A model generated the notes under the pieces. The model had not been told where the DNA came from, did no database searches, and saw only the letters and a list, made by a program, of their open reading frames with translations. DNA of 64,000 bases from an uncultured Sphingomonadaceae bacterium (lineage in GTDB: Bacteria > Pseudomonadota > Alphaproteobacteria > Sphingomonadales > Sphingomonadaceae): contig CANMFX010000003.1 of assembly GCA_947497315.1 (NCBI GenBank), positions 310,001 to 374,000 of the forward strand. Reading direction: 5' to 3'. Each line of letters opens with the position of its first letter. The stretch's first letter is position 1. This document shows, one piece after another, positions 55-15,999 of the stretch. The translations under genes and the position numbers were made by a program.

Positions 55-73
55 CATTCGAATTATGAATTGG
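55..73. promoter_or_regulatory. Candidate LysR-type operator, copy 1
   Basis: The site CATTCGAATTATGAATTGG lies 61-79 bp upstream of the S9 peptidase start. It matches the site at 5185-5203 in 17 of 19 bases and contains an ATTC-N7-GAAT dyad of the kind LysR regulators bind. A second related word, ATGCATSATGACA, occurs twice here (44-56 and 91-103). That the LysR protein encoded at 4233-5141 binds it is inference. Confidence 0.5.
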
Positions 74-133
74 CGACCTGTGGCATTTGTATGCATCATG
101 ACAATTCTTTGAACATAAAGAAGGGTAAGGGGC

Positions 134-2257
134 ATGGTGATCATCAGAAACTTACGCGTTACAAGTTCCATGGCTGGTCTGTTGTTGGGAGTCGGCGTGG
201 CTGTGTCAGCGCCGCTACAGGCAGCCGAAAAATCTCAAAAAACAACCATAAGCCCGGTTGCGTTTATTGAGATGCCGCGATTGGACGACCCCGTACTTTC
301 TGCGGATGGCAAGAAAATCGTCATGGTCCAATCCGCGGTGGATTGGGCGGAGAATGAGCGTGTTGATGCTTACAACCTGATTGATGTTGAAACTGGAGAC
401 TTGCAGGCAATTCCGCGGAGCGAGATTGAGGATGACAGCCTGTCGGCCGCACAATGGTCACCGGACAGTTCCGGTTTTGTGGCAACGTTGAAACGTGAAG
501 ATGACGAAAAGGCTGCCGCCTATTTTTATGATATCGAGAGCAAAAGCCTGACCAAATTGTTCGAGCATCCGGAGAATGTCTCAGACCTCAAATGGACGAA
601 TGATGGTCGCACGATCTACTTTCGAATGCGACGTGACGAAAAGAAAACGAAGGAAGACAAAGCGCGTGAAATAGCGCCTTATGATGTTTCCATTCCGATG
701 GAATTATGGCGTTACCAGCAGGATGAGAAGATATCGGAGCCGGTTCTGGCTGGCCCGTTCAGCGTTCGCCATTTTTCGCTGTCAGCCGATGATAGCCAGA
801 TTATCTACAGCCGCATGCCAGAGGGCGCAGGCTATGCCAGTCACCACCGGGAATTGTGGCTGCGAGATATTGCGAGTGGCAGGGATACTCGCCTGACCAA
901 CAATGGATATCATGAAGCGGAAGCGCAGCTATCGCCTGATGGAACCCGCTTCGCTTTTATCGCCACCGTAAATGATAGGGGCGAAGGCTATTATGAAGAC
1001 AATCTGTTCGTCCAAACCATAGGATCATCACAGCCAAAATTACTGCTCCCGAACGAGCCCATGGAAGTGCTAGACTTCGCATGGAATAAGCAAGGTTCGG
1101 AAATTTATATATTGGGAAACACGGGCGTGCGGACCGATCTGTTTCGACTGAATCTGGACGGCAACCGGCTGACGCGGATTACAGAGGGCGATCATGTGCT
1201 GGGAGACTGGAGCTATAATCCGGAAACCGACACGCATATCATGCTGCGGACCGATGCGCGGAGCCCCGGCGAGGTCTATATCAAGAGAAAAGGCGGACCA
1301 CTTGAAAAGGTGAGCGGGATCCATAACGAATGGACAGAACATGTCCGGCTTCCCGAGCAGCAGGTTTTTCAATGGACGGCGCGAGATGGCACGACGCTTG
1401 AGGGCCTGTTGATACCGCCAGTGGGCTATCAGTCCGATGGCAAATATCCGCTGGTCACGATCACGCACGGCGGGCCGCGCTCATCTTCGCAATTTGGATC
1501 CTGGAATACGTCACGATATGCCAGCGTTCTCGCAGGGCAGGGATATGCGGTTTTCCTGCCCAATCATCGAGGCGGAACCGGCTATGGCGATGCATTCATG
1601 CGCGATATGGTCGGCAACTATTTCCGCAACTCGCATCTCGACGTCATGGACGGCATTGATGCGCTGGTCACACAGGGCATTGCTGATCCCGACCGACTGG
1701 TGAAAATGGGCTGGAGTGCTGGCGGCCATATGACCAACAAGCTGATCACCTTTACCGATCGGTTCAAGGCGGCGTCATCCGGTGCCGGTGCCTCCAGCTG
1801 GATATCCATGTATGGGGAGAGTGACGTGCGCCATAATCGCACGCCCTGGTTTGGTGGTGCTCCATGGCAGGAAAATGCGCCGCTGGATAGTTACATCGCC
1901 CAGTCACCATTGAAAGATGCGTGGAAAGTGAAAACACCGACTTTGTTCTTCAACGGTGGCAACGACGTTCGGGTGCCGCCTACCCAGCAGATCATGATGT
2001 ATCGGGGCGTCCGGGCGGCCGGTGCACCGACAAGTCTCTATGTTGCCGAGGGTGAGCCGCATGGTTTTCGCAAGCCGTTTAACCAGCTGTTCAAGATCAA
2101 TACAGAACTTGCCTGGTATGCCAAACATGTCCTCGACAAAGACTATCAACCTGTTCTGCCGCCGATAGAGCCTGAAGTAGAGGAGGAAGAGACAGAGGAA
2201 GAAGAGGAGCAGGAAATTCCGGAAGAACAAAAGGTTAGTGAAGAGACCGTCCAATGA
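134..2257 (+). CDS. Secreted S9 family peptidase (dipeptidyl/acylaminoacyl peptidase type)
   Basis: Serine peptidase of the prolyl oligopeptidase clan, 707 residues, probably periplasmic. An N-terminal signal sequence (residues about 1-30, ending near ALQA) precedes a WD40-like/beta-propeller region (about 40-400) and an alpha/beta hydrolase domain (about 420-680). The triad is visible: Ser528 in GWSAGG, Asp611 in GGNDVRVPP and His643 in EGEPHGF, with the oxyanion HGGP motif near 445. Such enzymes release dipeptides or acylated residues from short peptides. The C-terminus is a run of glutamates (about 675-700), unusual for the family. The ATG follows a purine-rich GGTAAGGGG. The next gene overlaps it by 4 bp (ATGA), indicating one operon with the DUF819 and S51 genes. 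Exact substrate is not inferable. Confidence 0.9.
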   Translation: MVIIRNLRVTSSMAGLLLGVGVAVSAPLQAAEKSQKTTISPVAFIEMPRLDDPVLSADGKKIVMVQSAVDWAENERVDAYNLIDVETGDLQAIPRSEIEDDSLSAAQWSPDSSGFVATLKREDDEKAAAYFYDIESKSLTKLFEHPENVSDLKWTNDGRTIYFRMRRDEKKTKEDKAREIAPYDVSIPMELWRYQQDEKISEPVLAGPFSVRHFSLSADDSQIIYSRMPEGAGYASHHRELWLRDIASGRDTRLTNNGYHEAEAQLSPDGTRFAFIATVNDRGEGYYEDNLFVQTIGSSQPKLLLPNEPMEVLDFAWNKQGSEIYILGNTGVRTDLFRLNLDGNRLTRITEGDHVLGDWSYNPETDTHIMLRTDARSPGEVYIKRKGGPLEKVSGIHNEWTEHVRLPEQQVFQWTARDGTTLEGLLIPPVGYQSDGKYPLVTITHGGPRSSSQFGSWNTSRYASVLAGQGYAVFLPNHRGGTGYGDAFMRDMVGNYFRNSHLDVMDGIDALVTQGIADPDRLVKMGWSAGGHMTNKLITFTDRFKAASSGAGASSWISMYGESDVRHNRTPWFGGAPWQENAPLDSYIAQSPLKDAWKVKTPTLFFNGGNDVRVPPTQQIMMYRGVRAAGAPTSLYVAEGEPHGFRKPFNQLFKINTELAWYAKHVLDKDYQPVLPPIEPEVEEEETEEEEEQEIPEEQKVSEETVQ

Positions 2258-3486
2258 CATTGCCGCTGGATAATGTCGCGAGCTTTGGTGTCCTTTGTGC
2301 TATATTGGGTATCCTGTTTTTTCTCAAAAATCGGGGCGGTTTCTGGGATCGGTTTTTCGTTTTCATTCCCATCGTATTGCTCTGCTACCTCATCCCCTCA
2401 CTGCTTCGCAGCTTTGGTATTGTGGCATCGGCCGATGACGGTTTGTGGCAGGTGGCCAAGGATTATTTTCTGCCCGCAGCTTTGATATTGATGACATTGA
2501 GCATCGACCTCAAAGCCATTATGGGCCTTGGATCCAAGGCGCTCATCATGTTTTTCACTGCCACTATCGGCATCATCATCGGTGGGCCTGTCGCGATCCT
2601 GATTGTGGGTTCGTTCAGCCCGGAGACTGTTGGCGGTGAAGGGGCTGACGCAGTCTGGAAGGGCCTTGCTACATTGGCTGGGAGCTGGATCGGCGGCGGA
2701 GCAAACCAGACTGCGATGCTGGAAGTTTACGGCTATAATCCGGAGCGTTACGGCGCCATGGTCGCTGTCGACATCGTCATTGCCAATATCTGGATGGCAT
2801 TTCTGCTTTATGGTGCTGGTAATGTTGAGAAAGTGGACCGCTGGCTAAAGGCAGACTCTAGTGCGATAGATAATTTGCGAGACAAGATGGCGAATTTCAC
2901 CCTGTCTGTTGAACGCACGTCTACCACATCGGAAATCATGCTGTTGCTCGCGGTGGCTTTTGGCGGGGTCGGTCTATCTCATCTCTTGGGTGGTTTTCTG
3001 TCCGGTGCTTTCGAAGCCATACCTGCTTTTACTGACAGTTTTCTGGCGGGCAAATTCTTCTGGATAGTGGTGATTGCGACCACTTTGGGCGTAGCACTCA
3101 GCTTTACCAAAGCGCGCGACCTTGAAGGGGCCGGTGCATCCAAGTTCGGAACTGTCCTTATATTTCTGCTGGTCGCTATTATCGGCACCAAGATGGATAT
3201 TTTCCAAATGGCTGATGCGCCGATGCTGTTCCTCGTCGGGTTCATCTGGATGTTGTTCCACAGCATATCGTTGATCGTGGTCGCCAAGATGATCCGGGCT
3301 CCGTTTTTCTTTGTCGCGGTGGGTAGTAAAGCGAATGTCGGTGGTGCAGCGTCAGCCCCTGTTGTAGCGGCGGCTTTTCATCCTGCGCTCGCTCCAGTCG
3401 GGGTCCTGCTGGCGGTGCTTGGCTATGCGTTGGGCACTTATGGCGCCATCTTGTGTGCGCAACTGATGCAGGCGGTTGCTCCATGA
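2254..3486 (+). CDS. DUF819 family integral membrane protein
   Basis: A 410-residue polytopic membrane protein with about ten to twelve hydrophobic segments, matching the DUF819 (YjcL-like) family in length and in glycine-rich motifs such as GSWIGGGANQTAM (about 149-161) and GSKANVGGAASAP (about 356-368). The family resembles secondary transporters, but its substrate is not established. The gene is translationally coupled to the S9 peptidase upstream (ATGA overlap at 2254-2257) and to the S51 peptidase downstream (overlap at 3483-3486). This tight packing between two peptidases suggests import or export of a peptide or amino-acid product, which is inference. Confidence 0.85.
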   Translation: MTLPLDNVASFGVLCAILGILFFLKNRGGFWDRFFVFIPIVLLCYLIPSLLRSFGIVASADDGLWQVAKDYFLPAALILMTLSIDLKAIMGLGSKALIMFFTATIGIIIGGPVAILIVGSFSPETVGGEGADAVWKGLATLAGSWIGGGANQTAMLEVYGYNPERYGAMVAVDIVIANIWMAFLLYGAGNVEKVDRWLKADSSAIDNLRDKMANFTLSVERTSTTSEIMLLLAVAFGGVGLSHLLGGFLSGAFEAIPAFTDSFLAGKFFWIVVIATTLGVALSFTKARDLEGAGASKFGTVLIFLLVAIIGTKMDIFQMADAPMLFLVGFIWMLFHSISLIVVAKMIRAPFFFVAVGSKANVGGAASAPVVAAAFHPALAPVGVLLAVLGYALGTYGAILCAQLMQAVAP

Positions 3487-4199
3487 CAGCTGTTTCCCGG
3501 CAGTTTTTTGGCATAAGTGATTCTGCGTCGCTGTTTGTAGCGGATGATGCCGAACCCGTCATGGCGAAAAAACTTGTCTCTCTGTCGAAAAAGACAAAAC
3601 CGGTCATTTGTTATGTTGGCGCTGCGAAAGGTGACCGGCAAGATCGAATTGCTGAATTCCTGACGCTCGCCGAGCGGATTGATGCAGTTCCCCATATACT
3701 CAGTTTGTTTAATCCCCCGACGGGTGATCCCAGTCTGTTTTTTGCCGGCGTCGATATCGTTTTTATAGACGGAGGATCGACCCGCAACCTGATGGCGATT
3801 TTTGAGGAATGGGGTGTCGTGGATGCCTTGCGCAATGCCTATGAACAAGGTGTCATCATTGCAGGGGCCAGCGCTGGGCTCAATATCATGTTCGATTGGA
3901 ATATTACGGACTCGGTGAAATCGGAGCTAGTACCGCTTAAGGGGTATGGGTTTTTGAGCGGCAGTGTATGCGTACATTATGATGCCAACTCCGGCAGACA
4001 ATCGCTGTTTCAAGATTTTTTGATCAATGGCGAGGCAGTCTTTCCAGCCCTCGCGATTGACGAGGGGGTTGCCATTCATTTCGAAAACGAGCGCATAAAA
4101 TCCGTATTTTCCGTCAGTGATACAGCGAGTTTACGGCAGATATTAAAGCAGGATGGGGCGCTTGTTTCTACCCCACTAGATGTGCAGCGCATCGGTTGA
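3483..4199 (+). CDS. Peptidase E-like S51 family hydrolase
   Basis: A 238-residue protein of the S51 peptidase / type 1 glutamine amidotransferase-like fold. The nucleophile elbow GASAGLN (serine near residue 130) and the upstream GGSTRNL motif (about 99-105) are the expected S51 signatures. Relatives are peptidase E, which cleaves Asp-X dipeptides, and cyanophycinase, which degrades a beta-linked Asp-Arg polymer. No signal peptide is present, so it should be cytoplasmic. The ATG at 3483 overlaps the DUF819 stop (ATGA), which decides this start over an in-frame GTG/ATG further upstream. It is the last gene of the S9-DUF819-S51 operon and may process aspartyl peptides imported by its neighbours (inference). 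Confidence 0.8.
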   Translation: MTAVSRQFFGISDSASLFVADDAEPVMAKKLVSLSKKTKPVICYVGAAKGDRQDRIAEFLTLAERIDAVPHILSLFNPPTGDPSLFFAGVDIVFIDGGSTRNLMAIFEEWGVVDALRNAYEQGVIIAGASAGLNIMFDWNITDSVKSELVPLKGYGFLSGSVCVHYDANSGRQSLFQDFLINGEAVFPALAIDEGVAIHFENERIKSVFSVSDTASLRQILKQDGALVSTPLDVQRIG

Positions 4200-4232
4200 G
4201 GCGCAAAAGAAGTGCTTCTTACGAAATAGGAT

Positions 4233-5141
4233 TTATGAAGCTTGTGAATTGGGCCGCTTGAGCTGGTTCCAAATGTCGGAAACTATGGGATTGCCGTTAC
4301 TCGCGGCGCAGTAGATGCGAATGGACAAGCTCGTCGTATGATTGCTCGGTACAAGACGCAGTCCTTGCTCAGCAGGATCACCGGGAACGACCGTCTCCGG
4401 CAGCCATGATATCCCGAATCCATTCTGCGTTGCCGCCAATATGCTTTCGACCAATGCTGCCCGATACACGATGTTCAGCCGTTTCTTGAACCGGGCCTTG
4501 CCAAGCAACTGTTCAAAAATCCGGGACATGAAGGAAGTGTTGGAATAGGCCACATAGGGGATGGATTCTAAACCATCCTCCCGCAGATCAATCGGAGCAG
4601 AATCGATGCTTTGATATGGACGTAAGTGGTGGCGTTCAATTTCGATACTAGGGAATTGTACCGGATCGAAATCGAACGAGATCGAGTCATGATGGTATGA
4701 GATGAAGAAATCACTGGCCCCGTTGTGAAGGCTGGTCAGATAGTCTTCGGCAGCGCGAGTTTCGGCAATGATCAGGGTAGAAAATGGCGACGTCACCCCA
4801 TGCCAGGAATTTATGAGTTCCGGTACAAACTTTAACGCCAAAGTATGTAGACTGGAAATCGTGATGCTGTTTTTACCGATTTTTGAATATTCATTCGCAA
4901 CCGCGCGCGCTTCGTAACACTGATCGACAATATTTCTGGCGGTATTGATAAAATCTTCCCCAGCGGGCGTCAGCTTGATGGGGTGAGCTGAACGGTTGAA
5001 AAGAGGTGTGCCGATCCACGACTCCAGCGCCTGAATACGACGACTTAAAGCGGACTGAGTAACGAACCGTGCCTCCGCAGCATGGGCAAAGTGTCCCTTC
5101 TCAGCAACACTAATGAAATCTTCCAGCCACTTTAGTTCCAA
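4233..5141 (-). CDS. LysR family transcriptional regulator
   Basis: A 302-residue LysR-type regulator. The N-terminal winged helix-turn-helix is clear (residues about 2-62, with the AHAAEARFVTQSALSRRIQ helix region), followed by the periplasmic-binding-like effector domain (about 90-290). The start is TTG at 5141, supported by AAGGA 8-9 nt upstream. It is divergent from the TonB-dependent receptor and converges on the S9-DUF819-S51 operon. Both flanking operons carry a near-identical upstream dyad (55-73 and 5185-5203), so it probably controls both and itself. The inducer is unknown; a peptide or amino acid is the contextual guess. Confidence 0.9.
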   Translation of the reverse strand: MELKWLEDFISVAEKGHFAHAAEARFVTQSALSRRIQALESWIGTPLFNRSAHPIKLTPAGEDFINTARNIVDQCYEARAVANEYSKIGKNSITISSLHTLALKFVPELINSWHGVTSPFSTLIIAETRAAEDYLTSLHNGASDFFISYHHDSISFDFDPVQFPSIEIERHHLRPYQSIDSAPIDLREDGLESIPYVAYSNTSFMSRIFEQLLGKARFKKRLNIVYRAALVESILAATQNGFGISWLPETVVPGDPAEQGLRLVPSNHTTSLSIRIYCAASNGNPIVSDIWNQLKRPNSQAS

Positions 5142-5184
5142 GAAAAATGTCCTTTTTCAGAAGCTTGCGTTTTTCGCATCGTAT

Positions 5185-5203
5185 CATTCCAATTATGAAT
5201 TTG
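5185..5203. promoter_or_regulatory. Candidate LysR-type operator, copy 2
   Basis: CATTCCAATTATGAATTTG lies between the divergent lysR and TonB-receptor genes, 44-62 bp upstream of the lysR TTG and about 98-116 bp upstream of the receptor ATG. It differs from the copy at 55-73 at only two positions. Placement fits the usual autoregulatory arrangement of LysR regulators. Confidence 0.5.
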
Positions 5204-5300
5204 AAGTCATTTTTTATGATGTCAGACCGGGGTCGGAGGAACAATGGCTCAGTAACAGCTGGGATTGTGCAACAAAATTGTCTCGAGGGGGATATATCAG

Positions 5301-8300
5301 ATGATAAAGTTACGTAACATATTAAAATGTTCAACCGTACTAATGGCGGTAACCAGCATCCCGGCTCTGGCTCAAGAAGTGCCGGACACGGAACAGGCTG
5401 AGGCAAGCGCAAGTGATGATCTGATTGTTGTTACGGGGTCACGTATCGAACGGCGAGCAGAAGAATCGTCCATCCCGCTACAAGTATTCAGCGCTGATGA
5501 TATAGAAGAAACAGGTAAAACGGATCTGGCGGAAATCATCACGCAGCTTCCGGGTGTAGGTGATGGTGTTTCGGTTCAGAACAGTAACAACTCTATCCAA
5601 AATAATGGCCTTTCCACGATCAGCTTGCGGCGGTTGGGCGACAACAGAACGCTTGTCTTGATTAACGGTAAGCGGGCTGTGTCCAACTCGGGCAATGGTG
5701 ATCGCGTCAGCCTTGGCACCATTCCAGCAGGCTTCGTAAAGCGTGCCGAAATTACAACCGGCGGTGCATCCGCGATTTATGGTTCTGACGCTATCGCAGG
5801 TGTTGCGAACTTCATTCTCGAAGACTCTTTTGAAGGCATCGATCTCGATGTCCGCTTTTCGGCTCCCGATGCAAGCGGCGGCGAAGAGCTGCGCCTCGAA
5901 GGCCTCTACGGCACCAGATTTGCCGATGACCGTGGTTATATTCTGCTCGGTGCAAGCTATCGGGATGAGGATGAGATATTGATCGATTCCAGTCGTCCTT
6001 TGGCTGCGGCTGCGCTGGAATTTGATGATCCAGCTGATGCTTCCGGGGATTCTTTCGCTAATGAGGTAAATGCGCCAGGCTGTGATCCGGATAATACTGA
6101 CCGCCATTGTATTTTGCCGTCATTCGATTCCGACCTTCCAGGTGGCGTTTTTGAGGGTGATGCCTGGTTCAGAGATGGTCAGTGGTTTAATGACGTAGCG
6201 CGCGATGATCCTAGTGGTTTTGGTCGTCTGCCCGCTGATCGAGAGCCGGGACAGGATTTCCTGGGAGACTTCGATGGTATCAATGATCGTTTGGGGCAGT
6301 CCCTGCGCTCGAAACGCGAAATACTTAATCTTGGCTTTCATGGGAAATATGAGTTCTCCGATGTGGTTACCGCATCGCTGACCGCACTTTATTCCGATGT
6401 AGACACAGTCAGTCGCAATGGCATCGAAGATGCCGGCAGTGGAGAATCTTACGGTATTTTAAATGGTGTGCCTGATGTGTTCAATGTTCGCCGAATGGCT
6501 TCGGACCATCCATTCATCCCGCCGGAAGTTGAGGTTACGCGAAGCGGTACGGTCTCGTGGATAAGATCCTTTCCGGAAGTCGGCGAAGAGCAACGTATCA
6601 ACAGCCGTGAAACGATCCGTTTAATGGGTGATCTGGATGGCCAGTTGACGGATGCAATCAGATGGAACGCTTTCGCGACCTATGGCGAATGGAAGCAACG
6701 GGCAATTAATGTTGGCGAGATCAATCTTCAGAATGTAGATTTTGCTCTGGATATCGAAGATAATGGTGCGGGTGGTTTTCAATGCGCCGATGCAACCGCC
6801 CGTCAAAATGGTTGTGTGCCGTTAAATCTTTTTGGAGAAGGAAGTGTATCTCCCGAAGCCGCAGAATATATCAGCTACACGGGTGACGCTTCGCAAAAAC
6901 GAACCCAGTTTACGGCTGGTGGGTCAATCAATGGTGATCTTTTCTCTATAAACGACCGCAATGTGAAATTTGCTGCCGGTGTTGAGTATCGCCGGGAAAC
7001 GCAAAGCACGAGAGGCGACCGTGATGGTGATTTGGTCGGCGGCGTCGATGGTGATCCGACAACCAATGATGTCTTCGTTACGACCCACTCTACTTTTCCA
7101 AGTATCACGGCAAACTATGACGTTGTAGAAGGTTTTGTGGAAATTGATGTACCGTTGTTTGAAACCGTAAATGTCAGCGGTGCCGCTCGCATCGCCGAAT
7201 ATTCTACCGTCGGAACGATTTTCAGCCTGAATGCCGGACTTGTTTGGCAGATGAACGATGATCTAAGATTCCGTACACAATTTTCGCGATCTCAGCGGGC
7301 ACCGAACATTACCGAGTTTTTCTCGCCAGCGCGTCCTGATGGCGATGATCTCCAGGACCCTTGTGAGGGTTTGAATCCGGATGGAACCGGCATTTCAGCA
7401 CCGTCAAGTCCGGGTGGAGAGAATGCAAACCTTGCTACCATTGCACAAAACTGTCTGGCTGAGGCTGGAATTCAGGCTTATTTTGCCGATCCCGACAATC
7501 AGGATGCAGCCGGTGTTCCCGACGCTTTTGATGCGCCAGGTGCTACGCAAGGTCCAAATGCCGGTAACCAGAATCTTCAGGAAGAAACCGCGAATACATT
7601 TACCGCCGGTTTCGTGCTCACTCCGTCGGCTATTCCAAACTTCACCTTTGTAGCCGACTATTACCGGATCAGCATCAAAGACGCGATTGGTTCAGTCAGC
7701 ACGCAAAACACGGTTGATCTTTGCTATGCTGCGGATGATTTCCCGAACAACCGGTTCTGTGATGTCATTACCAGAAACGCTCTGGACGGCAGCGTTGATG
7801 AGGTGATTAACTTTCAGGAAAATCTGAATAACGAGCTGGTCGAGGGTATCGACGCGACGATGCGGTGGAGCCGTATTGAACTGCCGGTTATTCCCGGGCG
7901 TTTCGATATCGACTTCCGTTATTCTCACTATTTCAAGGATCAAACGACGTTCACCGGTATTGGCGGCGTAACGGTATTGGATACTCCATTAGGAGAGATC
8001 GATAATGGTGAGGATGAACTTCGCTTGCGCCTGGGTTATCGAAACGGCGGTTTCCGAATGACTTACACGCTCAACTATGAAGCGGGTGGCGTAGACAGTA
8101 ATGACGCTGCAAATCCTGACGACGACCGCTTCTTCCGCGTGAGTGACGAAACTTTTCATGATGTTTACGCACGCTATCGTTTCGGTCCCGATGATCGTTA
8201 TACAATTTATGGCGGCGTGAATAATATTTTCAATAATTTCGGTCCGCTCATTCCAACAGGTACTGATTCAGGCAGCAGTCTCAACATCACGAACGACGTG

Positions 8301-8351
8301 AATGATGCCGTTGGCCGTGAGTTTTTCCTCGGTGCAAGCGTTCGCTTCTAG
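5301..8351 (+). CDS. TonB-dependent receptor
   Basis: A 1016-residue outer-membrane receptor that imports substrate using TonB energy. A signal peptide ends near residue 25 (ALAQE). The plug domain (about 40-170) has the VVTGSRIERR start and the LVLINGKR and IYGSDAIAGVANF signatures, and a long beta-barrel ends with the typical terminal aromatic strand (GREFFLGASVRF). ATG 5301 is chosen because GAGGGGG lies just upstream and the peptide starts with a normal MIKLRN signal. The sequence type resembles sphingomonad receptors for peptides or glycans rather than ferric siderophores. It is divergent from lysR and shares its putative operator with the S9 peptidase operon. Confidence 0.9.
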   Translation: MIKLRNILKCSTVLMAVTSIPALAQEVPDTEQAEASASDDLIVVTGSRIERRAEESSIPLQVFSADDIEETGKTDLAEIITQLPGVGDGVSVQNSNNSIQNNGLSTISLRRLGDNRTLVLINGKRAVSNSGNGDRVSLGTIPAGFVKRAEITTGGASAIYGSDAIAGVANFILEDSFEGIDLDVRFSAPDASGGEELRLEGLYGTRFADDRGYILLGASYRDEDEILIDSSRPLAAAALEFDDPADASGDSFANEVNAPGCDPDNTDRHCILPSFDSDLPGGVFEGDAWFRDGQWFNDVARDDPSGFGRLPADREPGQDFLGDFDGINDRLGQSLRSKREILNLGFHGKYEFSDVVTASLTALYSDVDTVSRNGIEDAGSGESYGILNGVPDVFNVRRMASDHPFIPPEVEVTRSGTVSWIRSFPEVGEEQRINSRETIRLMGDLDGQLTDAIRWNAFATYGEWKQRAINVGEINLQNVDFALDIEDNGAGGFQCADATARQNGCVPLNLFGEGSVSPEAAEYISYTGDASQKRTQFTAGGSINGDLFSINDRNVKFAAGVEYRRETQSTRGDRDGDLVGGVDGDPTTNDVFVTTHSTFPSITANYDVVEGFVEIDVPLFETVNVSGAARIAEYSTVGTIFSLNAGLVWQMNDDLRFRTQFSRSQRAPNITEFFSPARPDGDDLQDPCEGLNPDGTGISAPSSPGGENANLATIAQNCLAEAGIQAYFADPDNQDAAGVPDAFDAPGATQGPNAGNQNLQEETANTFTAGFVLTPSAIPNFTFVADYYRISIKDAIGSVSTQNTVDLCYAADDFPNNRFCDVITRNALDGSVDEVINFQENLNNELVEGIDATMRWSRIELPVIPGRFDIDFRYSHYFKDQTTFTGIGGVTVLDTPLGEIDNGEDELRLRLGYRNGGFRMTYTLNYEAGGVDSNDAANPDDDRFFRVSDETFHDVYARYRFGPDDRYTIYGGVNNIFNNFGPLIPTGTDSGSSLNITNDVNDAVGREFFLGASVRF

Positions 8352-8454: not shown

Positions 8455-9432
8455 ATGGGTATGCCGATGAACATCCGATATCTTGCAGTGGTCAGCAGTT
8501 TGGTCTTCATATCCGGTGGCTACGTCTCTGCGTTGGCCAGTGCCGCACCGTCTGGCAGTAAAGCTGCTGAGCGACCAGCCGAGCACCGTTTTCACAGCGT
8601 CACCTCAACCGGAACGTCGGAAACCCTTGCGCTGAAATCCGGAGAGATTAACCGGTTTGTCTTCACAAAGTGGGCGGGCCCCGATTTGCCGGTTTGGGTA
8701 TATTTGCCCGATGGCATTGATTTGTCGCGCGCGCCTGTCCTGTTCATGATGCACGGCAACAAGCGTGATCCCCATCGCTATCTCAGGGAATGGCGAGAGC
8801 CTGCTCAGGAAAAAGGCCTTATTGTTGTTGCGCCGGAATTTTCCCAGCGGGATTTTCCAAAATCCGCGGGCTATAATCTCGGCAATGTCTTCCGGAAAGA
8901 AACCGAAGGACGGCAAGATGAATCCATCTGGTCCTTCAGCGCCATTGAACCGATTTTCGATCGTGTAAAACAGGTTGTTGGAAGCCAGCAGACGCAATAT
9001 AGTATTTACGGTCACTCGGCCGGCGCACAATTTGTGCACCGGTATCTTTATTATAAACCCGATGCGCCGGTGAAACAGTATATCGCCGCCAATGCTGGCT
9101 GGTACACACGGCCCGATCTGGCAGAAGTATATCCTTATGGACTGGCTGGGGCTGGTATCTCTGAAGAGATGATAAAGGCGGCGTTGAGCAAAAACGTCCT
9201 GCTGCTTTTGGGGGATAAGGATAATGACCCCAATCATAAAAGCCTGCGACGGAGCCCAGAAGCCATGAAGCAAGGATCGCATCGTTTTGCTCGCGGTTTG
9301 TCTTACCATGAATTCGGCAAACAGAAGGCCGATGAATATGCCTTGCCCTTTGGTTGGAGAGTAAAGGTTGTTCCTGGTGTTGCCCATTCCAACGGTTTGA
9401 TGGCCAGGGCCGCTGCCCCTTCTGTGAACTAG
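8455..9432 (+). CDS. Secreted alpha/beta hydrolase (esterase/PHB depolymerase-like)
   Basis: A 325-residue predicted secreted hydrolase. The signal sequence covers about residues 1-30 (hydrophobic core YLAVVSSLVFISGG, cleavage near ASA). The fold shows an oxyanion FMMHGN motif (about 99-104), a nucleophile elbow GHSAGA (about 186-191), an acid residue region GDKDND and a late histidine in VPGVAHSNG. The domain resembles poly(3-hydroxybutyrate) depolymerase-type and feruloyl-esterase-like proteins; substrate cannot be named. In-frame ATGs at 8455, 8461 and 8467 are all possible and none has a strong ribosome site; 8467 gives the cleanest signal peptide. It follows the TonB receptor in the same direction and may be co-expressed. 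Confidence 0.75.
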   Translation: MGMPMNIRYLAVVSSLVFISGGYVSALASAAPSGSKAAERPAEHRFHSVTSTGTSETLALKSGEINRFVFTKWAGPDLPVWVYLPDGIDLSRAPVLFMMHGNKRDPHRYLREWREPAQEKGLIVVAPEFSQRDFPKSAGYNLGNVFRKETEGRQDESIWSFSAIEPIFDRVKQVVGSQQTQYSIYGHSAGAQFVHRYLYYKPDAPVKQYIAANAGWYTRPDLAEVYPYGLAGAGISEEMIKAALSKNVLLLLGDKDNDPNHKSLRRSPEAMKQGSHRFARGLSYHEFGKQKADEYALPFGWRVKVVPGVAHSNGLMARAAAPSVN

Positions 9433-9459
9433 GTTTCCAGATCGTTTATAAGATGTAGA

Positions 9460-9494
9460 GACCGGTCTGCGCTTTCCCTGCGTAGTGACCGGTC
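9460..9494. terminator. Possible bidirectional hairpin between convergent genes
   Basis: Two copies of the self-complementary word GACCGGTC (9460-9467 and 9487-9494) can pair across a 19-nt loop in the short gap between the convergent hydrolase and pheA genes. No strong T-tract is present, so terminator function is tentative. Confidence 0.3.
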
Positions 9495-9497
9495 ATA

Positions 9498-10400
9498 CTA
9501 GGAGCGCGGTCGTCCCTGCCGATAGGTACCGAGCAGGCGGACCTCGTTGCAGTGGAAATGCAATTCCTCCAGAGCCCGGTCAACTGCCGGGTCACCAGGA
9601 CCGCCTTCTATGTCAGCGTAGAATTTCGAGGCTGAGAAACTGCCACCTTCCTGATAGCTTTCCAGTTTTGTCATGTTGACACCATTGGTCGCGAAGCCGC
9701 CCATCGCCTTGTAGAGTGCGGCGGGAATGTTTTTTACTTCAAAGATGAAGGTGGTCATGAGTTGAAAATCATCAGGACCATTGCTCTCTGGCATTACAGC
9801 ATCAGAGGCGAGCAGGACGAAGCGCGTCATGTTATGATCTTCATCCTCTATCGCATTGGCAATAGGTTGCAGGCCGTAAATCTCTGCAGCGAGCGGCGGG
9901 GCAATCGCGGCGGCTTGAGCGTCCTCCTGCTGTGCGACATAAGCTGCAGCAGCTGCGGTATCCGCGTAGGCGACGGGAATAATGTCACGGGCGCGCAGAT
10001 AGTGGCGGCATTGGCCCAGTGCTTGCGGATGACTCATTGCTGTTTTGATCTTTGCGTCTTCGGATTTCGCCATCAGGCAGTGGCGAATCCGCATGAAGTG
10101 CTCCGCAACAATATGCAGACCCGATTCGGGCAGCAGGAAATGGATGTCAGCAACCCTTCCATGCAGGCTGTTCTCAATAGGGATTATTGCGGATCCGGCT
10201 ATGCCCTGCTTCACCGCATCAAGTGCATCTTCAAATGAAAAACAGGGCAGAGGCAAGCAATCCGGGGCATATTCCATGGCTGCCAGATGGGAATTGGCAC
10301 CTGGTGCGCCTTGAAACGCGATCGTCTTGGCAGGAGCCTCTGCTGCCGTTGCGGTCATTTTATCGACCATGGCCAGGGCGTTGCGCGGGAAGCTGTTCAT
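9498..10400 (-). CDS. pheA: Prephenate dehydratase
   Basis: Converts prephenate to phenylpyruvate, the committing step to phenylalanine. The 300-residue protein has the substrate-binding dehydratase domain (about 20-200; FQGAPGANSHLAA near the start and a TRF motif, in MTRFVLL) and a C-terminal ACT regulatory domain (about 210-290; the usual ESRP motif appears as ESYQEGG), which normally gives phenylalanine feedback inhibition. The open frame runs on to 10925, but that part overlaps the cytochrome c gene on the other strand. ATG 10400 is preferred because it gives normal family length and has AGGAAA upstream. It is divergent from the cytochrome c gene. Confidence 0.9.
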   Translation of the reverse strand: MNSFPRNALAMVDKMTATAAEAPAKTIAFQGAPGANSHLAAMEYAPDCLPLPCFSFEDALDAVKQGIAGSAIIPIENSLHGRVADIHFLLPESGLHIVAEHFMRIRHCLMAKSEDAKIKTAMSHPQALGQCRHYLRARDIIPVAYADTAAAAAYVAQQEDAQAAAIAPPLAAEIYGLQPIANAIEDEDHNMTRFVLLASDAVMPESNGPDDFQLMTTFIFEVKNIPAALYKAMGGFATNGVNMTKLESYQEGGSFSASKFYADIEGGPGDPAVDRALEELHFHCNEVRLLGTYRQGRPRS

Positions 10401-10620
10401 GACGCTATCATTTCCTGTTTTATGCACCCGTTTGTCAAAGGTCGCGATTGCCGTACAAAATGCGTCTGCGCAAGACCTGATCGCACTTGGCGAAACTGGC
10501 GCAACAATATTAGCATCTATACGTGTAATTGAGGTCTTGCTTTGAACCGGCGGTCTTATTAGAGAAAGCCCAAAGTTTTGACAGGCTGCTCCTGTCGGTA
10601 ACGCAGGGATTTTTGACAAG

Positions 10621-11256
10621 ATGGACAATAACAACACCATTGCTGGCTGGGTATTGGCAGGCGGAATTGCAGCGCTTGGTTTTTCGATCCTGAGCGGCAA
10701 ATATTTCCACGCTGACAAGAATGAGCGTCCGGAAACGATGGGTTTCGTAATTGAAGGTGTAGAATCGTCAGACGGCGGTGCGGAAGAAGTGCCGATGAGC
10801 ATGATGCTCGCCAAGGCCGACGTTGCAGCGGGTGAGGCCGTATTCAGGAAATGTGTTGCCTGCCATACAATCAATGAAGGCGGTGCCAATGGCATTGGGC
10901 CAAATTTGTGGAACTCGTTCGGCAAATCGCACGGCCATGTTGCCGGTTTTGCCTATAGCGATGCCCTTGCGTCGGTCGAAGGCAACTGGAACTTCGACAA
11001 TATGAATGCGTGGCTTATTTCCCCGCGTAAATACGCACCGGGCACGAAAATGACCTTTGCCGGTCTCAGCAAGCCTGAAGATCGAGCCAATGTCATAGCC
11101 TACATGAATGCACAGGGCTCAAACCTGCCTTATCCTGAGCCACCTGCCGCCGAAGAAACGCCAGCAGAGGGTGAAGCTGTCGCCGAAGCCGATGCTGCAG
11201 CAACCGAAGTGGCAGAAGAAACCGTGGCGGCGGACGAAGCAGCTGCTGCGGAATAA
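10621..11256 (+). CDS. Membrane-anchored cytochrome c (CycM/c552 type)
   Basis: A 211-residue mono-haem cytochrome of the class I c family. An uncleaved N-terminal membrane anchor (about residues 5-27) precedes the haem site CVACH at 78-82 and a distal methionine in GTKMTFAG. Such proteins carry electrons from the bc1 complex to the terminal oxidase at the periplasmic face. The C-terminal 45 residues are an Ala/Glu-rich tail (about 165-211), common in sphingomonads. It is divergent from pheA. Confidence 0.88.
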   Translation: MDNNNTIAGWVLAGGIAALGFSILSGKYFHADKNERPETMGFVIEGVESSDGGAEEVPMSMMLAKADVAAGEAVFRKCVACHTINEGGANGIGPNLWNSFGKSHGHVAGFAYSDALASVEGNWNFDNMNAWLISPRKYAPGTKMTFAGLSKPEDRANVIAYMNAQGSNLPYPEPPAAEETPAEGEAVAEADAAATEVAEETVAADEAAAAE

Positions 11257-11285
11257 GCCTTTGCAGTCAAGTTTTCTGTGAGCGA

Positions 11286-12155
11286 CTAGCCGCAGTCGAG
11301 ATCGTAAAAATCCTGGATAATCTGCCAGGCTTCATCAGCTGTTTCGACAAACTGGAATAGGTCGAGGTCTTTGGCGCTAATCGTGCCTTCTTCGGCCAAA
11401 GCGTCAAAATTAATCACCCGGTGCCAGAAATCCTTACCAAACAGGATGATGGGCAAGGGCTCCATCTTGCCAGTCTGAACGAGTGTTAGCAGCTCGAAAA
11501 ACTCGTCAAATGTTCCGAACCCGCCCGGGAATACCGCAACGGCTCTGGCGCGTAGCAGAAAGTGCATTTTTCGCAGCGCGAAATAGTGGAACTGGAAACT
11601 GAGAGACGGGGTCACATATTCATTGGGTGCCTGCTCGTGCGGCAGGACGATGTTAAGGCCAATGGACTCCTTGCCTGCATCTTGCGCACCGCGATTGGCT
11701 GCCTCCATAATCGAAGGACCACCACCAGAGCAGACAACAAAGTCCCGTTTGCCATTTTCCTCAATGCCGCAGTCACTGGCCAGCTGCCCCAGCCTGCGCG
11801 CTTCATCATAATATTTCGATTTTTCTTTCAACCGCTCGGCGGTCTTTAGCGAGGCCTCATCTTTGGCCGCTTCGACCAGAGCATCAGCCTTGCTGGGTTC
11901 GGGGATGCGCGCCGAGCCATACATGACCAGCGTCGAGCCGATACCGGCCTCATCGAGTAGCATTTCGGGCTTGAGCAGTTCCAACTGGAACCGGACGGGG
12001 CGCAATTCCTCGCGCAGCAGGAAGTCATTGTCCTGAAAAGCAAGTGTATAAGCGGGGTCTTCGGTCTGGGGGGTGCTTAGGGCCTGTTGCTTGGCGAAAT
12101 CTGCTTCCTGTTTTGCACGATAGAAGCGGCGGTCGTGTAAATCTTTATTTGTCAT
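11286..12155 (-). CDS. LOG family protein (TIGR00730 type)
   Basis: A 289-residue member of the lysine-decarboxylase-like/LOG Rossmann family. The hallmark PGGFGTFDEFFE motif is present (about 210-221), with a GGGPSIMEAANRGA motif (about 144-157) where GGGPG is more usual. LOG enzymes hydrolyse nucleoside 5'-monophosphates such as cytokinin ribotides to base plus ribose phosphate; the bacterial physiological substrate is often unclear. The protein is longer than minimal LOG (about 190 residues) because of an N-terminal extension of about 80 residues, typical of the larger TIGR00730 group. It converges with the cytochrome c gene. Confidence 0.85.
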   Translation of the reverse strand: MTNKDLHDRRFYRAKQEADFAKQQALSTPQTEDPAYTLAFQDNDFLLREELRPVRFQLELLKPEMLLDEAGIGSTLVMYGSARIPEPSKADALVEAAKDEASLKTAERLKEKSKYYDEARRLGQLASDCGIEENGKRDFVVCSGGGPSIMEAANRGAQDAGKESIGLNIVLPHEQAPNEYVTPSLSFQFHYFALRKMHFLLRARAVAVFPGGFGTFDEFFELLTLVQTGKMEPLPIILFGKDFWHRVINFDALAEEGTISAKDLDLFQFVETADEAWQIIQDFYDLDCG

Positions 12156-14415: not shown

Positions 14416-15999
14416 ATGCCAAAAGTACTTATTTCCGACAAAATGGATCCCAAAGCTGCCGAGATTTTCCGCGAACGTGGTGTTGAGGTGGATGAGATTA
14501 CTGGGCAAACGCCCGAAGAGCTGCTCAAGATTATCGGCGACTATGATGGTCTTGCCATCCGGTCTTCGACCAAGGTGACGCCAGAAATATTGGAAGCAGC
14601 CACCAACCTGAAAGTGGTTGGTCGCGCCGGTATCGGTGTCGACAATGTCGATATCCCCGCAGCATCGACCAAAGGCGTGGTGGTTATGAACACGCCATTT
14701 GGTAACAGCATTACAACCGCTGAACATGCGATTGCGATGATGTTCGCACTGGCCCGCCAACTGCCTTCTGCAGATGCTTCGACACAGGCCGGTAAATGGG
14801 AAAAATCCAAATTCATGGGGGTCGAGCTGACCAGCAAGACACTCGGTTTGATCGGTGCGGGCAATATCGGCTCTATCGTCGCAGAACGGGCCATCGGCCT
14901 GCGCATGAAAGTTGTCGCCTATGATCCGTTCCTGACTGCTGAACGCGCGATTGAGATCGGAATAGAAAAAGTGACGCTCGACGAGCTGCTCGAACGGGCT
15001 GATTTTATTACTATGCACACGCCACTGACGGACCAGACCCGCAATATCATGTCGGCAGAAGCCATTGCCAAGGCGAAGCCGGGCGTGCGGATCATCAACT
15101 GCGCTCGTGGAGGCTTGATTGACGAAGGAGCCTTGAAAGAGGCGCTGGAGTCCGGCCATGTCGCTGGTGCAGCGTTGGATGTTTATGCGGAAGAGCCGGC
15201 AAAAGAAAACGCGCTGTTTGGAACGCCGAATCTAATCTGTACGCCACATTTGGGCGCATCGACCAGTGAAGCACAGGTCAATGTAGCCATCCAGGTGGCA
15301 GAGCAAATGGCCGATTATCTCGTCAATGGCGGCGTTGAAAACGCGCTCAATATGCCTAGTCTCTCGGCAGAACAGGCGCCGAAGCTCAAACCTTACATGG
15401 TGCTCGCAAATCAACTAGGTTCTTTGATTGGCCAATTATCGAGCAGTTCGCTGAAAGGCATTTCGGTTGAAGTGGAGGGCGCAGCCGCTGAGCTAGACCC
15501 CAAACCAATCACTGCCGCCGTGCTCGCCGGATTAATGGCAGCCTATAGCGATTCTGTGAACATGGTGAACGCGCCTTATCTGGCAAAAGAACGCGGCCTT
15601 GATGTCCGTGAAGTCCGGCATGATCGCGAGGGTGATTATCACACATTGGTCCGTGTTTCCGTAACCACAGACGAAGGCGAGAAATCCGTTGCGGGTACGC
15701 TATTCGGTTCTTCTGGTCCGCGGCTTGTTGAGATGTTCGGTATCAAGGTTGAAGCCGATCTGGAAGGCGATATGCTCTATATTGTCAACCGCGACCAACC
15801 AGGTTTCATCGGTAGCGTTGGTTCTACATTGGGCGAGGCAGGGGTCAATATCGGCACCTTCCATCTGGGCCGCCGTGCTGATGCACCGGGTGGAGAAGCC
15901 GTGTTGTTGCTTTCCATCGATTCGCCAGTGGAAGAACCCGTGCTATGGGCCGTTTGCCAGCTTGAAGGGGTGAAAACGGTCAAAGCGCTGCGCTTCTAA
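14416..15999 (+). CDS. serA: D-3-phosphoglycerate dehydrogenase
   Basis: NAD-dependent first enzyme of serine synthesis, oxidising 3-phosphoglycerate. The 527-residue protein is the long type I form: a substrate domain split around a Rossmann NAD domain (GAGNIG at 147-152), an intervening allosteric domain (about 320-450) and a C-terminal ACT domain (about 455-527, starting MLYIVNRDQPGF). ATG 14416 gives the conserved MPKVLISDKMD start. An upstream open stretch runs through the inverted repeat and is not coding. It is the second gene of the serine operon. Confidence 0.95.
   Translation: MPKVLISDKMDPKAAEIFRERGVEVDEITGQTPEELLKIIGDYDGLAIRSSTKVTPEILEAATNLKVVGRAGIGVDNVDIPAASTKGVVVMNTPFGNSITTAEHAIAMMFALARQLPSADASTQAGKWEKSKFMGVELTSKTLGLIGAGNIGSIVAERAIGLRMKVVAYDPFLTAERAIEIGIEKVTLDELLERADFITMHTPLTDQTRNIMSAEAIAKAKPGVRIINCARGGLIDEGALKEALESGHVAGAALDVYAEEPAKENALFGTPNLICTPHLGASTSEAQVNVAIQVAEQMADYLVNGGVENALNMPSLSAEQAPKLKPYMVLANQLGSLIGQLSSSSLKGISVEVEGAAAELDPKPITAAVLAGLMAAYSDSVNMVNAPYLAKERGLDVREVRHDREGDYHTLVRVSVTTDEGEKSVAGTLFGSSGPRLVEMFGIKVEADLEGDMLYIVNRDQPGFIGSVGSTLGEAGVNIGTFHLGRRADAPGGEAVLLLSIDSPVEEPVLWAVCQLEGVKTVKALRF

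Follow-up and report, generated by a model that had tools for sequence, protein, structure and literature searches.

We analysed a 64,000-nucleotide window from an uncultured Sphingomonadaceae bacterium (G000:C3:310001-374000), which begins with a sphingomonad locus of genes for an S9 peptidase, a DUF819 membrane protein, an S51 peptidase, a LysR-type regulator, a TonB-dependent receptor and a putative hydrolase. Two copies of a candidate operator, one upstream of the S9 gene and one between lysR and the receptor gene, are the subject of this study. On the forward strand, the S9 family peptidase (134-2257, 707 aa, signal-like N-terminus, PF00326 at 5.7e-41) is followed by the DUF819 membrane protein (2254-3486, 410 aa, PF05684 at 9.1e-89) and the S51 family peptidase (3483-4199, 238 aa, PF03575 at 1e-27). 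The start of each of the latter two genes overlaps the stop of its predecessor by 4 nt, consistent with a single operon. The regulator gene lies on the reverse strand (4233-5141, 302 aa, PF00126 at 3e-21 and PF03466 at 2.4e-11), and its product is LysR-type by both domains, the N-terminal HTH_1 domain PF00126 scoring 75.6 bits against a cutoff of 26.6 and the substrate-binding domain PF03466 43.8 against 28. Its start codon is TTG, as in the related locus L142, and ATG stands at the same place in several other relatives. The TonB-dependent receptor gene (5301-8351, forward strand, 1016 aa, PF00593 at 1.1e-25 and PF07715 at 1.5e-19) diverges from lysR. It is followed on the same strand by a gene for a putative secreted alpha/beta hydrolase (8455-9432), which has an NCBIfam match below cutoff only and is possibly the last gene of the receptor operon; a hydrolase gene also stands after the receptor gene in L040, L041, L042, L141 and L142. 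The nearest named relative found was Sphingorhabdus sp. EL138 (L047), with a LysR protein 97% identical to that of the window.

A first-pass annotation, made from the sequence alone, had singled out two matching 19-mers at this locus as an operator pair and had argued that such a match is unlikely by chance. Both 19-mers, CATTCGAATTATGAATTGG at 55-73 and CATTCCAATTATGAATTTG at 5185-5203, are present exactly as claimed and agree at 17 of 19 positions. The argument about chance also holds: when the two intergenic regions (185 and 159 bp) were dinucleotide-shuffled, a best common 19-mer with 17 matches was reached in none of 3000 pairs, the maximum being 16 (14 of 3000). The combined pattern, with up to three mismatches allowed, has 2 matches in the window, compared to a mean of 0.10 over 100 shuffles, one of which reached 2. 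At the same tolerance the whole genome (3,417,547 bases) contains 8 matches, the window pair at 0 mismatches, one at 2 and five at 3, and the window pair are the sole genome sites with at most one mismatch. The reversed control pattern had no match in the whole genome at up to three mismatches.

The motif of the first-pass annotation is real, but it turned out to be only the promoter-proximal half of a 48-bp bipartite site, with a LysR-like T-N11-A box 21 bp upstream (centre to centre). Sites were modelled twice, R1 being built from 18 sites with both window sites included and R2 from 13 lysR/TonB sites with no window-clade site and no S9 site. Upstream of the S9-DUF819-S51 operon, the site occupies 31-78 on the forward strand (R2 match 33-75, whole-genome E 9.6e-4), and a position weight matrix (PWM) from lysR/TonB sites only found it with 0 of 2000 shuffles doing as well. 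It consists of the distal box TGCCGAAAATGCA (36-48), a candidate LysR recognition site of the form TGC-N7-GCA and T-N11-A, and the proximal box TTCGAATTATGAA (57-69), followed by TTGGC, a candidate activation site that would overlap the -35 region. In the lysR/TonB divergent region, the site occupies 5161-5208, given on the forward strand (R2 match 5164-5205, whole-genome E 4.1e-8), with the distal box TGCGTTTTTCGCA (5166-5178, again TGC-N7-GCA), which begins 24 nt away from the start codon of lysR, and the proximal box TTCCAATTATGAA (5187-5199), followed by TTTGA.

Layout and spacing are identical at both window promoters, namely TGC-N7-GCA, 8 bp, a TTC-N7-GAA-like box and TTkG(C), with 21 bp between the box centres. 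Of the 48 columns, 29 agree between the two sites, so their distal halves are similar in key bases and not overall. Among 21 family sites, T-N11-A is present in the distal box of every one and the full TGC-N7-GCA in 13, while GAA-N-T-N-G is present in the proximal box of 20 and TTC-N7-GAA in 7. Summed over columns, the distal box carries about 12.5 bits of information and the proximal box about 11.9 bits. Two features expected of a LysR-type operator are found, a T-N11-A recognition box and a second box placed promoter-ward on the same DNA face at fixed spacing. The strict dyad ATTC-N7-GAAT, given in the first-pass annotation as the usual kind of LysR site, occurs in only 4 of the 21 sites and was rejected as the defining motif. 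The loose pattern TGC-N7-GCA-N8-TTC-N7-GAA was likewise set aside as unspecific on its own, since it matches exactly at 4 places in the genome, of which two are off-locus.

To follow the site in relatives, LysR-group genes were sought in 397 family genomes (16 with a match at E<=1e-50), in 60 relatives and in genome contigs. The contig search returned 80 loci, of which the ten with a LysR identity of at least 43% (L047-L056) were mapped; the other 70 were at 36% or below. Altogether 22 loci were mapped, and a TonB receptor 45-80% identical to that of the window is present in 18 of them, the window's own locus not counted. In 19 of the 22, the receptor gene is preceded by the 48-bp site (R1 E<=3.1e-5 in 530 kb, R1 having been trained on sites from these loci). 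With leave-one-out PWMs, the expected place scored highest in each of 15 non-redundant lysR/TonB regions, against 0 of 500 shuffles in every case, the sites having first been chosen by eye. In 12 of these 15 loci, the distance from the lysR start to the distal box is 22-24 nt. The exceptions are L145 (33 nt), L150 (about 210 nt) and L044, whose lysR and receptor genes are in tandem with the site between them, so that it stays with the receptor gene although lysR has moved.

The S9 and receptor genes are separated in the window clade (L039-L042) and in L141, L142 and L143. The PWM from lysR/TonB sites only found a site upstream of S9 in all four lineages tested (L039, L141, L142 and L143), with 0 of 2000 shuffles each, and R2 matched those S9 sites at E values from 4.2e-6 (L141) to 0.0084 (L142) in 236 kb. 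In L055 and L044, S9-DUF819-S51 follows the receptor gene and one site per locus was found; the second site thus accompanies the split of the operon. The two promoters within each of L141, L142 and L143 have diverged outside the key columns and kept the key columns. Conservation in relatives, the check that had been named beforehand, was therefore observed at the lysR/TonB promoter and also at the S9 promoter where this heads a separate operon. The earlier suggestion that one control acts on both operons gains support from the same site at both promoters. L142 additionally holds an extra operator copy (14634-15069) by a 123-aa open reading frame (ORF) with only the lysR DNA-binding domain, a duplicated lysR-plus-operator piece without a target.

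The site is rare in the genome. R1 found the two window sites at 4.1e-9 and 3.1e-6, the next places following at 1.91 and 6.84, and R2 found no other place at E<=1. A genome-wide regulon was rejected, as neither model yielded more than two strong places in the window genome. R2 gave nine places at E<1e-3 among the 60 relatives, comprising five lysR/TonB sites (G030, G014, G000, G024 and G035, the last an R2 training genome), the window S9 site, one place each in G019 and G013, and one in G033 that lies in another conserved region. Two of these are blind matches in same-genus genomes. The one in G013 (2.9e-4) precedes an S9-DUF819 operon (55% and 74% identity) and is separated by 355 kb from that genome's own lysR-group gene. 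The blind match in G019 (1.6e-5) lies intact upstream of a 324-aa ORF (L190, 6866-7840) in which the 243 N-terminal residues of S9 continue in frame into the 84 C-terminal residues of the hydrolase, a trace of deletion of the genes between. Around the G019 and G013 sites, DUF819, S51 and TonB genes were sought within 18 and 19.5 kb, respectively. Overall, all 6 genomes that carry a lysR-group gene contain a site at E<1e-3, compared with 2 of the 54 that lack one (Fisher 5.6e-7; one of the six had supplied training material for R2). Among the 397 family genomes, an R2 place (E<=0.002) occurs in 16 of 16 with a lysR-group gene and in 15 of 381 without, a comparison that is partly circular as many of the former are in R2 training.

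We consider it probable, judging from sequence comparison, that the two places form a bipartite LysR-type operator pair read by the regulator encoded between them, and co-regulation of the receptor and S9-DUF819-S51 operons is well supported on the same grounds. The linked LysR would then be the protein bound at both sites and may activate both promoters in an inducer-dependent way. In a LysR tetramer, one dimer could occupy the distal T-N11-A box while its partner occupies the proximal box, two helical turns away on one DNA face, with TTkGC at the presumed -35. Upon inducer binding, LysR would shift on the proximal box and switch on the receptor operon together with S9-DUF819-S51. It would also be expected to hold lysR itself down at the divergent promoter, because there the distal box begins 24 nt from the start codon of that gene. 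The TTGGC after the proximal box would fit a -35 element, and with the distal centre at -65, transcription may start near 107 and 5237, leaving plausible leaders before 134 and 5301. In the resulting pathway, the receptor would bring a peptide through the outer membrane for trimming by the exported S9 peptidase, DUF819 would import the product and the S51 enzyme would complete its degradation in the cytosol.

Several observations count against this assignment. Loci L043 and L051, whose lysR genes are 48-49% identical, have no convincing site by lysR (partial match in L043, E 0.093), and L144 has a weak site upstream of the receptor gene (R1 E 0.0011, R2 0.0034) with lysR downstream on the same strand. 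The proximal box is weak in its TTC (T in 13, T in 9 and C in 18 of 21 sites), and no conserved -10 element was found downstream of the sites. In the 397 family genomes, R2 gave 33 places at E<=0.002, of which 19 belong to the locus or its S9 genes and 14 are off-locus, and training sites make up 13 of the 33 and 12 of the 19. Nine of the 14 off-locus places are in one other conserved region and five are scattered, one of them in G225; sequence was retrieved around the other 32 of the 33. At the nine (L166, L204, L207, L208, L209, L210, L212, L214 and L215), an element around position 1500 sits beside a gene for a CDC48-type ATPase, mostly divergent from a CoA-transferase subunit gene, both names being readings of the translations. 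This element reads TTGC-N7-GCAA then TTTTCGCACTTGC and looks like the site of another regulator.

Further points of this kind feed the idea that the sites are read by a different DNA-binding protein, either another LysR or a global regulator, with the linked LysR a mere neighbour. The window genome has 10 LysR-like protein matches at E<=0.001, and any of the other LysRs could bind the sites. A good site is kept in G019, a genome that lacks a lysR-group gene (its best LysR match has E 2.6e-10), although the site there is part of a deletion remnant, and the G013 site is far from that genome's lysR-group gene, whose own locus is L043. The co-occurrence of site and lysR-group gene nonetheless argues for the linked regulator, as do the nearly constant distance of the site from the lysR start and the invariant T-N11-A, while only two strong sites in a genome is unlike a global regulator. 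We therefore regard a different reader as unlikely. An old promoter duplication, or a shared sigma-factor element in the core promoter with no regulator involved, is less probable still and would be surprising. The terminal TTkGC of the site may represent a -35 element, and a lysR-plus-operator piece was indeed duplicated in L142; yet a sigma-factor element would be common, and R1 and R2 find two strong places only. The two boxes are equally informative, and the promoter pairs that diverged outside the key columns but kept these also speak against this reading. A sigma-70-like promoter scan found none at either site, which cuts both ways, telling against a core-promoter element and also against the main reading. 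Chance likeness of two AT-rich stretches can practically be dismissed: both stretches are AT-rich and the strict dyad is rare in the family, but the shuffled pairs, the cross-lineage conservation and the R2 genome search refute it.

Peptides are the probable substrates, perhaps aspartate-rich ones. Two named identities of the S51 enzyme were rejected on their cutoffs. The S51 protein scored 30.6 bits against 126.6 as a cyanophycinase (TIGR02069) and 26.2 against 156 as the aspartyl dipeptidase PepE (NF003642), its Pfam S51 membership holding, and the S9 protein scored 188.9 against 900 as the dipeptidyl-peptidase Dpp5 (NF053518). Accessory genes across loci point to a theme of peptide use with a hint of aspartate. 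In L141, an aspartate ammonia-lyase gene (10404-11807, reverse strand) is added after S51 at the operon end, passing the subfamily cutoff (NF008909, 612.7 against 510 bits) and missing that of the aspA equivalog (530.3 against 681.2). In L189 (G013), the gene after DUF819 (8800-9966) encodes Ala_racemase_N and D-ser_dehydrat domains, and a similar PLP-type gene lies near the locus in L142 (15243-16391; best NCBIfam match BhcC, far below cutoff), both enzymes having the D-serine dehydratase / 3-hydroxyaspartate aldolase fold. A probable Xaa-Pro dipeptidase adjoins lysR in L145 and L152 (357.7 and 359.6 against 500 bits), and a more distant S9-type enzyme is encoded after the receptor in nine loci (L145-L149, L151-L154). 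DUF819 gave no match at E<=1 against solved structures. It belongs to the CPA/AT transporter superfamily, alongside glutamate:sodium symporters, and the excerpted text assigns no substrate to the family (PMC8396727).

A bolder and rather doubtful possibility is that of a so far undescribed, dedicated sphingomonad regulon for TonB-dependent use of aspartate-rich peptides, perhaps isoaspartyl, cyanophycin-derived or hydroxy-/D-aspartate-containing ones, with a LysR activation site unusually fixed in sequence. Under it, the site would go with the cargo genes when these are separated from lysR, and the operon could gain an aspartase (L141) or a PLP enzyme (L189). A motif seen by eye becomes a testable regulon of two promoters and one candidate regulator, and the 48-bp site allows target genes to be sought even when they are unlinked from lysR. 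The analysis also links a DUF819 transporter to a TonB receptor and two peptidases, and the well-conserved proximal box would offer a handy case of how LysR proteins use the activation site.

Among the papers listed by literature searches on the gene set, the regulon and the combination of aspartase, receptor and cyanophycinase, none dealt with this regulon. Atxe2-type lasso-peptide isopeptidase clusters of sphingomonads combine an S9 enzyme with a TonB receptor. The exported S9 enzyme beside such a receptor is common to both systems; they differ in that the S9 protein here is far below the isopeptidase cutoff (NF033523, 114.8 bits against 400), and its identification as Atxe2 was rejected. 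The closest solved LysR proteins by sequence are VV2_1132 (PDB 5y9s, 7e-38) and the HypT-type 7dwn (4.3e-31). HypT-type regulators differ from the LysR described here, which misses the HypT equivalog cutoff (NF007488, 95.3 bits against 301). In the marine sphingomonad relative Citromicrobium sp. JLT1363, a TonB-dependent transporter gene lies beside a cyanophycinase gene, which was taken as a substrate hint (PMC3400609). The proximity of a receptor gene to an S51-type gene is shared, whereas the excerpted account names no LysR, operator, S9 or DUF819, and the S51 protein here is below the cyanophycinase cutoff. Closest in architecture are the classical LysR systems ThnR (PMC4834489) and PnpR/PnpM (PMC5603801), where, according to the excerpts of both papers, a T-N11-A site near -65 is joined by a second, non-conserved site near -35. 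As at our locus, lysR and target diverge, the T-N11-A distal box is close to lysR, the second box lies one to two turns nearer the target, and a further operon carries the same site. In those excerpts the activation site has no conserved sequence, whereas the proximal box described here, a candidate activation site known from sequence, is about as conserved as the distal box.

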